From NCBI RefSeq assembly GCF_002723955.1, contig NZ_BEWN01000001.1, forward strand, positions 248,001-312,000: 64,000 nt of DNA. Direction: 5' to 3'. Under the pieces are notes generated by a model that was not told where the DNA came from, made no database searches, and saw nothing but the letters and a program-made list of their open reading frames with translations. Below, piece after piece: positions 11,505 through 20,849 of this stretch; the first letter of the stretch is position 1; each line of letters starts with the position of its first letter. This DNA comes from Gluconobacter frateurii. Its GTDB lineage: Bacteria; Pseudomonadota; Alphaproteobacteria; Acetobacterales; Acetobacteraceae. Both the position numbers and the translations under genes were made by a program.

Positions 11505-13127
11505 TCAGGCCGTCAGGGCTGCAGCTATCTTTGCTTCAGAAGAGATGTACTGGCTGTTCGAGAGGATCTGCACGCCCAGCATGGCGATGCTGTGTGCAGC
11601 CCGGTCCGTAATCTGGATCTCGGCATTGCCAGTCGTCCACCGTGCGGTCTGGTTTTCCAGGGCGCTCCAGCCGGAAAGCGTCTCTTCCTTCAGGTGAGTG
11701 GAAAGGCTGGTCGTGCTGCCTGCGTCATAAAGAACAACGCTGCCAACGAGCACGCCGAGCTGGCGGCGATCGTCCACAAACGCTCCGATAACGTCTGAAG
11801 GACGGCTCGTCCGAGACATCAGACGCACGCTATGGACGTTCTGCGGAAGCATGAACATGGCGTAGCCATTGGTCTCACGCATCTTGCGCAGGATCGTTCC
11901 ATCTTCTGTAACGAGGTGCAGGTCTGCATCTTCTGTCAGTGTGACGGACTGAGAATTGTCACGCACGCCAGCTGCCTTGGCGCGTGCCGCAATGGCGTGG
12001 AATACCGGCTCAACCGATGCACGAGCTGTTGTCAGTGGAGCGGCGGCATCTTCTGCCCAGTTCTTAACGGTTCCACCGATGCTGACCACTGCACCATCCT
12101 GCTGGAAGGAGCTCCGGTTGCCGGTGTTCAGGTAGCTCTCGGTCAGCAGACCATTTGCCGTGATGACAGAGTGTTCTGCCGTCTCGATGTGGAAGTACTC
12201 GTAGGATGTGATGGACAGATCGTAGTGGATGGAACGACCGTTCACCAGCATACGGGCAGGGATGAACTTGCCATCCAGGAACAGGCAATGCTCAGGAGTG
12301 ACCAGCAGATCCTGATGGGGAACGCCTGCTGCGATGGCATCTGCAAGGATACGAACCGGATAGCCGGCTTCATCAGCCGGAAGATCGGCGCGAACCGTCA
12401 TGCTGCGGCGACCGGCCCATACGACCGGGCGGACTTCCTCGCTGCCGGCAACATTCACGATAACGCTGTCGCCAGCTTCAAGGTTTTCAACAGCAACTTC
12501 ACCAGCCGGTGTCAGGATCATTGAGCCCGTCAGGAAGCAGGTCAGTGTGGAGTTGTTGCCGCTGCTGGAAGAGCTGAAATCTGCAGCCTTGTAATATGTG
12601 CCCTGCGGATTCTTGGCAGAATAAATGGTGCTGAGCGTCTTGCCGCTGCTGTCCGTAACGGTAATGACGCCATCGCCTGCATCCACAAGCTTCACAGCGC
12701 CGTAGGAGTTCACGAATGTGATGGTATCGCCGGGTGCAACATTCGAGAAGCTGACATTGGTTGCGTAGGCGTTAACGCTCACAGAGCTTCCCGCTTCCGG
12801 AGAGCCGAATTCAAAAGTCAGCGGACCAGAAGCGCTGTAAGCGTTGGTGTCCGTGAAGGAACCGCCATTGACCTTGATTGTGCCTGCCGGAAGCGTGCTG
12901 GCATTCAGCTTGAAGTTCGTACCGGCATTGATAACAAGCAGGGAGTTGCTGCTCAGGGTGAGCTGCTGGACTTCTACTGTCTTGTTGTTGTTGAGATCTA
13001 CCGTTCCGTGAATGGTGAGACTGTTTACGGCAGTGGCGGGGCTGCCCGTAACAATGGTTTCCTGCCCGTCAGTTCCGAGGTCGCCACCGGCTTGAGGAAT
13101 TGAAGACCAGTCTACGGTGTTCGTCAC
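11505..13127 (-). CDS. Hint-domain (hedgehog/intein-type) protein with beta-rich passenger
   Basis: Two-part protein of about 540 residues. Residues 1-196 are Gly/Ser/Thr/Asn-rich and resemble a repetitive extracellular beta structure (SLTIHGTVDLNNNKTVEVQ, LPAGTIKVNGGSFTD). From Cys197 a Hint domain begins (CFLTGSMILTPAGEVAVENL), with LLVTPEHCLFLDGKFIPARML and a later ITANGLLTESYLN. Hint domains catalyse N-to-S acyl shift and self-cleavage in hedgehogs and bacterial BIL proteins. The GTG at 13127 is chosen because residues encoded upstream to an ATG at 13202 look non-coding and lack a ribosome site; that longer version would add 25 residues. No classical signal peptide is visible. Function is not established. 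Confidence 0.78.
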   Translation of the reverse strand: MTNTVDWSSIPQAGGDLGTDGQETIVTGSPATAVNSLTIHGTVDLNNNKTVEVQQLTLSSNSLLVINAGTNFKLNASTLPAGTIKVNGGSFTDTNAYSASGPLTFEFGSPEAGSSVSVNAYATNVSFSNVAPGDTITFVNSYGAVKLVDAGDGVITVTDSSGKTLSTIYSAKNPQGTYYKAADFSSSSSGNNSTLTCFLTGSMILTPAGEVAVENLEAGDSVIVNVAGSEEVRPVVWAGRRSMTVRADLPADEAGYPVRILADAIAAGVPHQDLLVTPEHCLFLDGKFIPARMLVNGRSIHYDLSITSYEYFHIETAEHSVITANGLLTESYLNTGNRSSFQQDGAVVSIGGTVKNWAEDAAAPLTTARASVEPVFHAIAARAKAAGVRDNSQSVTLTEDADLHLVTEDGTILRKMRETNGYAMFMLPQNVHSVRLMSRTSRPSDVIGAFVDDRRQLGVLVGSVVLYDAGSTTSLSTHLKEETLSGWSALENQTARWTTGNAEIQITDRAAHSIAMLGVQILSNSQYISSEAKIAAALTA

Positions 13128-13358
13128 GTGTTTGTTCCAATCAATAATATGTCTGGGTATGGCCGTGGCGGACAACCGAACTGACGGCCAGAAGGTGCGC
13201 ATTATTACGTTCGAACAAAACTAACAGTCAATTGCATTTTGAAAAAATACAAACATTTCATGAATGGGTAAGCTAGGGCACACGACGCGGTTGCTAGCTT
13301 CCTGAAAAGGGAGCAGCCATAAAAGTCCAAATAAATGAGAAGATTAGAGCGTCGGAAT

Positions 13359-17220: not shown

Positions 17221-18144
17221 TCAAGGCGTTTTGGGAGCGGACGGATCTCTGGTGGGGGCAATGGGGATTGCATTTGCATCCAGCTTGCCATCGAACCCCT
17301 TGCGGACCAGATCCGTCCATCCTGGCATCCAGGCTTTGACGTCGGAAATGAATTTCTGTGCGGCAGGGTTGGCCTTGATGCCATCCTTGGTCCAGACGGG
17401 CGGAGGCGCCAGAAGTTGGCGTGAGCCGGGCTCGATTGGGGCAATCAGAGTTTCCACAGCTTCAATCTGGACGCCCTGAGTGCCTTGCGCCGCGGCGTGA
17501 TACCATCCGAGCGTGATCATGAGCGGTGGGATGGGAAAGCCCAGCGTGTTCATCCGATCGAAAGCTGCACTCACAAAAGGGCTGCCGTTGGGAGACCCGG
17601 GCATGATGAACGCATTGCCGATATAGGCACATTCTTCCACCATCCCTTGTTTTTCTACAATCTGGGATGCGTAGTTCCGGTCATCATGGCAGGGGCGTTC
17701 CAGATCATCCACAGCCTGGGGCGGGAGGGGCTGCTGGCTGGCTTCCACGACTATGACGCCCGAAACGACACCAAGCGAGGTTCTGGCCAGAACCTGTTGA
17801 GAGATCTCGCCGTGTGGTCCGGTGCGGGCGGCCAGAATAGGGTGCCAGTCTCCGGCTGGAAGGGGAATGATACGGCCAGCCAGACGTAGTCCCCCCTGTT
17901 GGGTAATGGCGGGATCCGGGGCCGTCACACTATCAGGGCTATTGTTCGGCGCGCCGCCGCCATTCCCCTGTGCGGATTGTACAGGGGCAGAACTGGTTCC
18001 CGGGGCTTTTCCCGGAAGCCATGGAAGATGCTTCTTTAGTGTGGGGGTAGGAAAGAATGCTGCCATTCCCATTCCCCCGACCATAACGAAAAGGCTTGTG
18101 CGCCAGAGCGGCGCACGGCGCCAAAGTCGACCAAATGCTGTCAT
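17221..18144 (-). CDS. Membrane-anchored protein of unknown function, third gene of the AAA+ operon
   Basis: 307 residues, family not recognised. One N-terminal hydrophobic segment (about residues 13-31) is followed by a low-complexity Gly/Asn/Ser/Pro linker (about 45-85) and a globular domain from about 90. Two Cys lie in that domain (RPCHDD and VEECAY), possibly a disulfide if it is periplasmic. This layout suggests a bitopic protein with the bulk outside the cytoplasm, but topology is inferred. The ATG lies 3 nt after the AAA+ gene stop, so both are co-transcribed. Confidence 0.8.
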   Translation of the reverse strand: MTAFGRLWRRAPLWRTSLFVMVGGMGMAAFFPTPTLKKHLPWLPGKAPGTSSAPVQSAQGNGGGAPNNSPDSVTAPDPAITQQGGLRLAGRIIPLPAGDWHPILAARTGPHGEISQQVLARTSLGVVSGVIVVEASQQPLPPQAVDDLERPCHDDRNYASQIVEKQGMVEECAYIGNAFIMPGSPNGSPFVSAAFDRMNTLGFPIPPLMITLGWYHAAAQGTQGVQIEAVETLIAPIEPGSRQLLAPPPVWTKDGIKANPAAQKFISDVKAWMPGWTDLVRKGFDGKLDANAIPIAPTRDPSAPKTP

Positions 18145-18147
18145 GGA

Positions 18148-19419
18148 TCAGTGGCTCAGGCGACCGAGCTGTACATCGGCATCCTTTGAGATTTCAGCTC
18201 TGACGCCATCGTCTCCGGCAGAAAGCCGGACCATCTTTGCACCCTGCTGTCGTGCGACAATCAGGCTTTCGCTGACCATATCCTCAATGGAGCGCACCAG
18301 ATCGCGAGCGCTGGCCCCGCTTCCAAGATTCTTCTGCTTGACCATGACCTGGAACAGCAGGGCGGCATCAATGCCGCCTGTCTCCACATGGAGGCCGTAA
18401 CTTTCAATCATGGCTTCGATTTCCAGAGCCGCAACGCGTGCCAGATCCAGGCCTCTCAGGGCACGGAAAACAAAGATCCGGTCGAGGCGGTTCAGAACTT
18501 CCGGAGCAAAGCCAGCCCGTTTGAGGGCCTCCACAGATTCGGCGCGCATCTTGTCCGGCTCATTTTCAAGCCGGTCTGCAATTTCCGTCAGGGCGTCGGT
18601 TGCGATGTTGGACGTCAGCATGAAGATGGCGCGTGTGGTAGAAACCTGCTCGCCGGTGGAGGCTTCCGTAACATGGCCGTCATTCCAGGCGGTCAGAAAC
18701 TTTTTGAAGACATCTGGGTGGGCCTTTTCGATTTCGTCCAGCAGAACGACCGCATCTGGTTGATCCTTGAGACCGCCCGTCAGCTTGCCGAACGTGTCAG
18801 AGCCCACATAGCCTTTCGGAGAACCAAAAAGCTGGGTTGCTGCATGAGGGCTCGACATCTGCGTCATGTCGAAATGCAGGAGGGGCCGTTCCATCTGCTT
18901 TGCGATCTGTTTGGCCAGATAGGTCTTGCCTGTTCCAGGGGGGCCAGCCAGCAGAAAAATTCCGACAGGCTTGCCACGAACCTGAAGGGCCAGGCGCCGC
19001 CGAAGCTGTTGGGCAATATCTTCGCAGACGCGATCCTGTCCAATGACACGGGCGCGGAGGGACGCGGCGAGTTCTTCCGCATCAATGACGGTTTCGCGCT
19101 GTTCGCGGGCCATGAGTTCTTCGAGGGCGCCGCGATTGGTCAGCCGGCTGAGAACATCCATGATCAAACCTTTCCTCCGACGCAGCCCACGGCGCGCCAG
19201 TTTTTCAGCAGAAGTTTCATAGGCGAGGCCTAGAGCAGTGAGTGCTGCGCCTGTCCCGGCGAGGGGCAGGTAAGCAGGGCGCATCCAGTCTATGGCTCGC
19301 CAAAGTCCGTCCAAGGACAGATGTAGCATGACGGCCACCTGAATAACCGCCAGAATCAGGAAGGCCGCCATCATGAGTGGCATGGCCCGGTTGAGCATGG
19401 GGACGATCGACTTAAGCAC
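18148..19419 (-). CDS. Membrane-anchored Clp-type AAA+ ATPase
   Basis: About 423 residues: two N-terminal transmembrane helices (about 11-35 and 48-68), a short linker, then one AAA+ module of the ClpA/ClpB D2 class. Walker A is GPPGTGKT (159-166), the pore loop is KGYVGSD, Walker B is VVLLDEIEKAHPD with Asp228-Glu229, sensor 1 is TSN (Asn271), the Arg-finger region is EVLNRLDRIF, and sensor 2 is GASARDLVR. The GYVG pore loop argues for substrate threading (unfoldase). It lacks the N domain and first AAA ring of ClpB and shows no protease domain. Start GTG 19419 has an AAAGG ribosome site; TTG 19440 is possible and would overlap the upstream gene. Confidence 0.85.
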   Translation of the reverse strand: MLKSIVPMLNRAMPLMMAAFLILAVIQVAVMLHLSLDGLWRAIDWMRPAYLPLAGTGAALTALGLAYETSAEKLARRGLRRRKGLIMDVLSRLTNRGALEELMAREQRETVIDAEELAASLRARVIGQDRVCEDIAQQLRRRLALQVRGKPVGIFLLAGPPGTGKTYLAKQIAKQMERPLLHFDMTQMSSPHAATQLFGSPKGYVGSDTFGKLTGGLKDQPDAVVLLDEIEKAHPDVFKKFLTAWNDGHVTEASTGEQVSTTRAIFMLTSNIATDALTEIADRLENEPDKMRAESVEALKRAGFAPEVLNRLDRIFVFRALRGLDLARVAALEIEAMIESYGLHVETGGIDAALLFQVMVKQKNLGSGASARDLVRSIEDMVSESLIVARQQGAKMVRLSAGDDGVRAEISKDADVQLGRLSH

Positions 19420-19429
19420 CGGGAGGCCT

Positions 19430-20032
19430 TTACTGAACAATCACGTCAAGCACGATACGCTGGGTCAGCGCAGTCAGGCTTGGCAGGGCTTCGGGGCCAA
19501 GAGCGGTCAGGGCGCCGATGGTGAGGGCGGGGGCATGAGGCATGGTGACGGGATCAATCGTGACCTGCGCTGCTTCCGCAATCGGGAGTACGAGGTGCTG
19601 GAATTGCCCTGTCAGCACAATGCGCTGCGTGAACCCCGACACTGTAACATCAACGGTTTGCCCTGTAACGCCTGCGCCATCAAGAACAGGCATCTCCACA
19701 AGCCGCATGTCGCCCCGTCTGACGGCAGCCAGGATGCTGCTTTTCTGTTGTTCCGTGAAACTGGTGCCTGCCAATGCTTTAGGAGCGTCCCCAGGAGCAA
19801 TCATGGAAAGCTGGGCATCTGCCTGGAAGGTTGAAGCAGCGCTGGCTGTCTGATTGCCAGATGGGGAAGCAAGTGTTGCCGCCGCTGGCGTTGAAGTAGA
19901 GTGCGTAAAGAAAAAAGCTCCCGCCCCGATGGATGCAACGGCCAGAAGGGTTCCTCCCGCCCAGAGTGAACGACTGCGAGGCGTTTCCTGCTGGGGGAGA
20001 AGTTGTGGTTTAGGCTCGGGCTGGGCTGTCAT
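19430..20032 (-). CDS. Bitopic membrane protein of unknown function, first gene of the AAA+ operon
   Basis: 200 residues, no recognised family. A Pro/Gln-rich cytoplasmic-looking N-terminus (about 1-22) precedes one transmembrane helix (about 24-43, WAGGTLLAVASIGAGAFFF). An Ala/Ser/Thr-rich linker and a beta-rich C-terminal part follow (GAGVTGQTVDVTVSGFTQRIVLTGQFQHLVLPI). Promoter-proximal member of the three-gene unit, divergent from rimP. Its closeness to the AAA+ gene suggests a shared complex; that is inference. Confidence 0.78.
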   Translation of the reverse strand: MTAQPEPKPQLLPQQETPRSRSLWAGGTLLAVASIGAGAFFFTHSTSTPAAATLASPSGNQTASAASTFQADAQLSMIAPGDAPKALAGTSFTEQQKSSILAAVRRGDMRLVEMPVLDGAGVTGQTVDVTVSGFTQRIVLTGQFQHLVLPIAEAAQVTIDPVTMPHAPALTIGALTALGPEALPSLTALTQRIVLDVIVQ

Positions 20033-20141
20033 TGGATAGTCATCTCACCCCGACGGGCCTTCCAAAGCAAGCATTCTGCGCCCGGATAAATGTAAACAAA
20101 TCTTTCGAATCCCCTGCATGGCAGCTTCCCTGTGCTTCTAC

Positions 20142-20170: not shown

Positions 20171-20205
20171 GATGCCATTCCATTCATCTTCCGCTCTTTT
20201 CGGGG

Positions 20206-20231
20206 GGTGGCCCTGACGGGCCGCCTTTTTT
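20206..20231 (+). terminator. Terminator-like hairpin in the rimP leader (candidate attenuator)
   Basis: Stem GGTGGCCC / GGGCCGCC (one T-G pair) with a TGAC loop, followed at once by six Ts. It ends 3 nt before the rimP start codon and has no plus-strand gene upstream to terminate. It could therefore act as an attenuator or hide the translation start of the operon that encodes NusA. Confidence 0.6.
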
Positions 20232-20234
20232 GTC

Positions 20235-20849
20235 TTGCCTCAACAGAACACATCTTCCGGTATCGAACTGCCCCACCTGACGGGTCTTGAAGCCCGTATT
20301 GCGGAGCGGATCGCGCCGACTCTGGCGGATCTGGGCTATGAGCTCGTCCGCCTTTCCGTTCTCGGGCGGGATACCCCGACCATCCAGATCATGGCTGACC
20401 GTGCGAACGGTTCTCTGATCTCCGTGGATGACTGCGAGCAGATCAGTCACGCAGTGGGCGCGATCCTTGACGTTGATGATCCAATTCCAGGCGCATGGAT
20501 GCTGGAAGTGTCGTCCGCCGGGATCGACCGTCCGCTGACCCGCGCCAAGGACTGGGACCGATTCGCTGGTCATCTGGCCAAGGCAGAACTTGACGTTCCG
20601 TTAAATGGCCGTCGTCGCTTCTCCGGAACGGTGATGGGCGCGCGGGATGGCAAAGGTGTTATCCGTCTGGATGACGGTACCGAGGCAGAGCTGCCGCTGA
20701 CGGAAGTCCGCAAGGCTCGTCTGGTGCTGACGGATGCCCTGATCGAGGCAAGTGCTGCCCTGTCAGGCGTTTCGTCCGACGAGGAAAGTGATGGCGAAGC
20801 GCCTCGCGTTCCGAAACTGAATCCGAAGAAGCCGGGGAAGAAGAACTAA
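20235..20849 (+). CDS. rimP: RimP, ribosome maturation factor
   Basis: 204 residues: RimP N-terminal domain ([21 protein letters not shown]) and SH3-like C-terminal domain ([27 protein letters not shown]), with an acidic then basic low-complexity tail. RimP assists 30S subunit maturation. An in-frame TGA at 20214 limits the start, and the only plausible initiator is the TTG at 20235. It has no Shine-Dalgarno sequence because the leader hairpin occupies that space. First gene of the nusA-infB operon, the standard position. Confidence 0.92.

Follow-up and report, generated by a model that had tools for sequence, protein, structure and literature searches.

The stretch of Gluconobacter frateurii DNA analysed here (contig NZ_BEWN01000001.1, positions 248,001 to 312,000; 64 kb, hereafter the window), from a host genome of 3.3 Mb, carries three minus-strand genes in the order A-B-C: gene A (19430..20032, 200 aa), gene B (18148..19419, about 423 aa with a GTG start), which encodes an AAA+ protein according to profile matches, and gene C (17221..18144, 307 aa). 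An earlier note, made from the letters alone, had described them as an operon with gaps of 3-10 nt in which a Clp-type unfoldase stands between two bitopic proteins, and the open reading frame (ORF) calls bear out its coordinates, strand and spacing, the A-B gap being 10 nt (with the GTG start at 19419) and the B-C gap 3 nt. The B start codon falls within one codon of the aligned place in relatives L014, L023, L038, L048 and L057, with an upstream TTG at 19440 as an alternative; B of locus L001 is 99.8% identical to that of the window (BLAST), in keeping with a source close to G. japonicus. The operon is widespread in acetic acid bacteria—organisms of vinegar, cellulose and vitamin C production, and partners of insects—its proteins A and C match no family significantly in the libraries searched, and in several lineages B is catalytically dead, a finding that goes beyond the earlier note.

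B consists of one AAA+ module (Pfam AAA_2, 125.7 bits) behind two hydrophobic helices. The first (TM1, 19324..19380; like all features of the three genes on the minus strand) has a Kyte-Doolittle value of 2.49 in the window, above the shuffled-sequence 95% point of 2.35, and reaches at least 1.6 in 107 of 108 rows; the second (TM2, 19213..19275) is weak in the window (1.21) and clear in most relatives (at least 1.6 in 88 of 110), and two control stretches reach the threshold in 0 of 110. The positively charged residues that precede TM1 and follow TM2 point to a cytoplasmic AAA+ domain. Walker A, Walker B, pore loop, sensor 1 and Arg finger were scored in 110 B proteins, leaving out L136, whose contig starts inside the operon and which is without B; these loci are not all independent, since L025 and L128 share one contig and NusA is identical in L073, L074 and L152. 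The Clp-type unfoldase motif set (Walker A, KGYVGS, LLDE, LTSN and the Arg finger) is present in the window and intact in 103 of the 110 loci. Among these 103, Walker A (GPPGTGKT, 18922..18945) is identical in 102, while the aromatic-x-G of the pore loop (GYVG, 18802..18813), the DE of Walker B (VVLLDE, 18733..18750), the Arg finger (R of EVLNRLD, 18487..18489) and a linker motif between the membrane and the AAA+ domain (RLTNR, 19132..19146) are kept in all. Profiles and motifs agree with the two N-terminal helices and the ClpB-D2-like module bearing GYVG, Walker, sensor and Arg-finger residues that had been read from the letters, TM2 of the window being the weak element, and the conserved pore loop would fit an unfolding or disassembly role. 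B is 73-98% identical to the window in 28 relatives, far better conserved than C (25-91%) or A (28-89%).

In NCBIfam, B aligns with the D2 region of ClpB (172.7 bits where the cut-off is 1232, with only positions 532-848 of 853 aligned) and with that of ClpA (162.7 bits), far under both cut-offs; the top profile score is that of PHROG 4871, a phage 'ATP-dependent protease' group, over the AAA+ module (204.8 bits), and the top PDB chains by sequence are ClpE, ClpC and ClpB. B shares the AAA+ core, Walker A and B, GYVG, Arg finger and lid with ClpB/Hsp104 and the ClpA D2, but has one AAA+ module rather than two, is membrane-anchored, has two bitopic partners and is without the ClpP loop. This kinship would be compatible with an accessory ClpP unfoldase or a spare ClpB, an explanation so improbable that it is rejected: the docking loop [ILV]G[FL]—loops of the IGF/IGL type dock ClpP—is found between pore loop and Arg finger in 0 of the 103 intact B proteins, while the host genome's ClpA-type protein has an IGF loop (its ClpB-type protein does not), and that genome also has a ClpB-type frame of 893 aa and a ClpA-type frame of 791 aa, both distinct from B, as well as a further, weaker B match that is probably Lon. 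A ClpB disaggregase was likewise discarded, B having the D2-equivalent part of ClpB only and not two rings with N and middle domains, and the claim that this is neither the ClpB nor the ClpAP system is upheld. Other candidates tried and rejected are ClpV/TssH of the type VI secretion system (144.4 bits against a cut-off of 885, in a neighbourhood of RimP, NusA, IF-2 and ABC transporter genes), Torsin (a narrow miss at 26.7 bits against the 27-bit Pfam cut-off, B also having GYVG) and the membrane AAA protease FtsH, whose zinc protease motif HExxH is found in 0 of the 110 B proteins.

Several known machines share one or other of these properties. FtsH and Msp1 are membrane-anchored AAA+ motors, as B appears to be, but B is Clp-like and without HExxH; Torsin with LAP1/LULL1 is a Clp-like single AAA+ protein with membrane partners, unlike which B keeps GYVG and would face the cytoplasm according to its charge pattern. 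Skd3 (human CLPB), a single D2-type ring, provides PDB chains that match B at about 1e-28 to 1e-30, and differs from B in that the latter has bacterial membrane helices and the partners A and C. In the excerpts consulted, Skd3 is reported as a disaggregase (PMC7343390, PMC9934407) with an ankyrin domain and a location in the mitochondrial intermembrane space (PMC9934407).

Protein A comprises a Pro-rich N-terminal tail, a hydrophobic segment (residues 23-41) and a predicted beta-sandwich (residues 68-199, 19436..19831), probably periplasmic, in an AlphaFold2 model of mean predicted local distance difference test (pLDDT) 73.3 and predicted template modelling score (pTM) 0.59. Protein C starts with the motif LWRRAPLWR (18100..18126), probably on the cytoplasmic side, of which L7, A11, W14 and R15 are invariant in 111 of 111 rows, followed by one hydrophobic segment and an alpha/beta domain (residues 83-287, 17284..17898; model mean pLDDT 86.4, pTM 0.73) with two conserved cysteines. 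Both proteins have a single N-terminal hydrophobic segment, which scores 1.4 or more in 87 of the 100 A rows and in 106 of the 111 C rows; because the peaks in the window (1.62 and 1.47) do not exceed the shuffled 95% points (2.08 and 1.94), the single-pass nature of both proteins rests on conservation across the family, and with this addition their description as bitopic stands. The cysteine pair of C is kept in 108 of 111 rows, which would fit a periplasmic disulphide; in L125, C is broken at the cysteine region.

As the earlier note had stated, A and C are not readily recognised. Pfam, NCBIfam, PADLOC and PHROGs yield no significant match to either protein (the best for A being an expectation value, E, of 0.055 in NCBIfam and of 0.12 in PHROGs), nor does the PDB by sequence, and fold searches return weak matches to common arrangements. 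For A, compared with an Ig-like sandwich, the best Z is 6.2 with many unrelated sandwiches tied; the C domain resembles Mog1/PsbP/DcrB in its overall arrangement (Z up to 8.0, reached with Mog1p over 154 aligned residues at a root-mean-square deviation of 4.8), but the Foldseek top match of the model is another family, the DasR effector domain (E 6e-4). C also differs from Mog1/PsbP/DcrB in being without a PDB sequence match, membrane-anchored and provided with a conserved Cys pair, and the likeness appears too weak for a family assignment. Proteins with a 'PLPPGEW'-like stretch in other Acetobacteraceae (L137-L142) match the C profile weakly, with no A or B match nearby; they were not counted as C and are possibly an unnamed periplasmic domain family.

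The absence of family matches for A and C also bears on a known secretion, conjugation or anti-phage system as the source of this operon, for which the PADLOC AAA+ matches of B (PDC-M37B 84.6 bits, DolB 72.4 bits) could be cited. These matches score below ClpB (172.7 bits) and are confined to the AAA+ domain, neither flanking protein significantly matches a secretion or conjugation component set in the four family libraries, and rimP adjoins the operon in 79 of 80 loci, which is not the setting of an island; this explanation, too, is rejected as barely credible.

The same 80 named acetic-acid-bacterial loci have A, B and C on the same strand, adjacent and in order without exception by hidden Markov model (HMM) search (A being broken in L025, and missed by BLAST in four loci where the HMM recovered it); the one locus without rimP, L076, is cut short by its contig end. 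Among the matches listed for 249 sampled genomes of the Acetobacteraceae, B is found in 60 (68 matched, of which 8 were set aside as ClpA/ClpB-type, with frames of 896-1066 aa), A in 53 and C in 62, three of the last (G299, G350 and G441) having the 'PLPPGEW' type only; G356, missed in the B search, was recovered through C and the B N-terminus. Outside the family, and again among the matches listed, the B N-terminus has two weak matches (E >0.001) in 289 genomes sampled from the class (Acetobacteraceae account for 4 of these), and in 219 genomes sampled from the same phylum it has a single weak match, interrupted by stops; C has two weak partial matches, both of one further family, among 230 genomes of the class. 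Divergent members (L111-L116, L122, L123, L126 and L133-L135) also have A, B and C together, with B 48-69% identical in the Acetobacteraceae loci where BLAST gave a value, and the available stretch around these operons contains no rimP or nusA. The co-occurrence of the three genes is therefore not just inherited synteny at a single site, and identity alone would place these members as earlier branches. The trio is thus found in many Acetobacteraceae rather than in this strain only.

The presence of A and the state of the ATPase are tightly coupled. A is present in 102 of the 103 loci with intact motifs (one broken assembly being counted twice), the lone locus without it, L124, starting at a contig end, and is absent in exactly the seven loci whose B has lost motifs (L118, L119, L120, L121, L127, L129 and L151), all of which have C. 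Walker B is lost in all seven of these dead B proteins, Walker A in six, the pore loop in six, the Arg finger in four and sensor 1 in two, and all seven remain open reading frames. The distance from rimP to B is 228-271 nt in the seven loci versus 654-1032 nt in six loci with A, so that A has been deleted there. Compared with an intact relative, dead B proteins are 13-40% identical from pore loop to Walker B, where four intact pairs show 87-98%, and 19-45% over the stretch between sensor 1 and the Arg finger (62-77% in the intact pairs). The values are 50-78% in the segment up to Walker A, 36-71% in the linker and 38-57% in the lid, the corresponding intact figures being 78-96%, 67-89% and 61-87%; the region from pore loop to Walker B and the surroundings of the Arg finger show the largest drop, and the segment up to Walker A the smallest. 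The C motif, as LWxRAPxWR, survives in the dead-B lineages. Genomes of the seven loci are small (1.9-2.4 Mb, among the matches listed), and six of the seven fall near Bombella, Parasaccharibacter and Saccharibacter on a NusA tree, a size and a placement that hint at insect symbionts. Taken with the synteny, this coupled loss of A and of the ATPase residues supports the view that B has two dedicated partners.

On that tree, for which 46 of 96 NusA rows were used, the dead state needs five changes, at least three of them on well-supported branches; a single dead clade is rejected (approximately unbiased test, p-AU 3.9e-31), and 0% of 200 bootstrap trees need one change. Intact sisters exist for L118 (L117) and for L151 (L152 and its like). 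The ratio of non-synonymous to synonymous substitution rates (dN/dS) for the dead pair L121/L129 is 0.045 in the AAA part and 0.056 in C, versus 0 to 0.026 (AAA part), 0.024 to 0.154 (C) and 0.043 to 0.166 (A) in five intact pairs, from which it follows that the dead B has been kept, under somewhat relaxed purifying selection. In the Saccharibacter locus L025, A is frameshifted and without a clear membrane segment while the B motifs and C are intact, and its contig lies beside L121/L129 on the tree (weak support, 78); counting this A as lost, A needs four changes and ATPase death five. This one assembly, in which a sequencing error is possible, suggests that A was lost first and that the motor decayed afterwards.

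Gene set, motifs, synteny, the coupling of A loss to ATPase decay and the retained scaffold, all as seen in sequence, are most readily brought together, in a reading favoured with somewhat less than even confidence, by an ATP-driven remodelling machine in which the ATPase and A form one module and C with the B scaffold another. We infer ring formation, topology, contacts, threading, the role of A as client rather than activator and an envelope process as its target. B would be a cytoplasm-facing AAA+ ring without a protease, anchored in the inner membrane through two helices of each subunit. C, through its LWxRAPxWR segment, single helix and periplasmic alpha/beta domain, would bind the membrane and linker part of B to form a standing core, and A, with a flexible Pro-rich cytoplasmic tail, one helix and a periplasmic beta-sandwich, would be the working partner of the ATPase. 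The ring would engage A, probably via its tail, and, at the expense of ATP, remodel it, release it or pull it out of the A-C-B assembly; in this way the motor would switch an envelope function of C-B. Where A has been deleted, the motor would lose its purpose and its catalytic and pore residues would decay, while C and the B scaffold stay. Because the C motif persists in the absence of the pore loop, it is unlikely to be a threaded segment, and the tail of A is a better candidate.

The coupling of A to the ATPase and the survival of C would be unexpected were A just one client among many, or were the motor needed for C, and this bears on general membrane protein quality control, in which B, with A and C serving as its adaptors, would extract damaged proteins that lie in the inner membrane or are exposed to the periplasm, in the manner of a protease-free FtsH or of Msp1. 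A membrane-anchored Clp-type motor with a pore loop is what such a role would call for, and the PDB match Skd3 is, in the excerpt consulted, a disaggregase (PMC7343390). In the samples searched, B is nevertheless found within Acetobacteraceae only, most of which are without it (among the matches listed), and the loss of one partner with decay of the motor, the other partner and a dead ring being kept, suggests a dedicated client and not many; quality control is therefore considered improbable.

A rival to be taken more seriously, although it too is unlikely, is transmembrane gating without threading, in which the ATP cycle of the B ring would move its helices and switch periplasmic C (and A), with A as an ATPase-dependent output or activator, much as FtsE/FtsX acts on its periplasmic partners. 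The conserved motif of C adjoins its membrane segment, C and the linker, N-terminal AAA and lid parts of B outlast the motor residues, and B has neither ClpP loop nor HExxH, all of which gating would accommodate; on the other hand, conservation of the pore loop in the 103 intact loci equals that of Walker A, something for which gating by itself has no need. It remains a serious rival since A could equally be an activator.

Several observations weigh against the favoured remodelling machine. The coupled-loss pattern fits A as activator equally well as client, and the tail of A is conserved as Pro-rich composition alone. Similarity to B guided the choice of the 80 named loci, which favour intact ATPases; 189 of the 249 family genomes are without a B match, and G495 is without a match for the operon proteins although its genus has the operon (both among the matches listed). 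The seven dead loci represent at most five events, too few for a sign test to reach significance (p 0.25 with three independent pairs on supported branches), and the dead label is loosely clustered on the tree (27 of 500 shuffles as low). The AAA part of the dead pair L121/L129 is less constrained than in the five intact pairs, and the second dead pair, L119/L120, is saturated and gives no whole-gene dN/dS value. In L151 the dead B retains the GKT of Walker A and passes the pore rule via a gapped match; L123 is intact by motifs, yet has a 311-codon B frame without the membrane helices and most of the lid; the first cysteine of C is missing in L123 and L124; and TM2 is weak in the window itself. 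L125, in which A is kept, the start of B is frameshifted and C is in pieces, is a decaying locus of another type.

Stated in full, the proposal would be an undescribed ATP-driven transmembrane machine in which a cytoplasmic Clp-type ring acts on the tail of the bitopic client A, thereby switching periplasmic C, and which became an ATP-free scaffold after client loss in three to five separate lineages; this more specific form is held as a possibility with distinct doubt. The operon is a conserved three-gene membrane machine of acetic acid bacteria without name or function in the libraries and literature searched. If the proposal is true, a membrane-bound ring of the Clp unfoldase type, serving a dedicated client, has repeatedly been turned into a dead scaffold, providing natural before-and-after versions of an AAA+ machine, and the purpose of the ATPase could be addressed directly by comparing lineages with and without A. 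To our knowledge the operon is undescribed, and no description of it was found among the matches listed in the open-access literature. The excerpts consulted of the G. oxydans screens and of the GOX1969 paper name no relevant AAA, Clp or ATPase gene, and a link to nickel resistance was dropped, the excerpt in question concerning HslVU (PMC3989265, PMC8602642, PMC12041372, PMC11302035).

The operon runs divergently from rimP-nusA-infB and faces, in convergent orientation, the genes of an ABC transporter (one for a solute-binding/permease fusion, one for its ATPase), both sets of neighbours being confirmed by Pfam. Further along, a 565-aa ORF with a Hint_2 domain (11505-13202, minus strand; 132.4 bits) is matched in just two of the 80 loci, L002 and L003, many loci ending close to this position. 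A LysR-type regulator follows C on the opposite strand in L023, L026 and L061—one Gluconacetobacter (L023, confirmed by Pfam), one Acetobacter and one Komagataeibacter—and the window has no room for such a gene. Just before the rimP start, and pointing towards rimP, a 12-pair hairpin is followed by a T run (20202-20239); an Rfam scan gave nothing at gathering thresholds and the hairpin is without a match there, while its stem is also seen in L002, L003, L005 (cut), L014 and L023, and attenuation of rimP-nusA is one possible role. A TTTACA-like box ahead of A (20080-20110), whose TTACA columns are invariant in nine of nine aligned loci, is a possible promoter element of the operon.

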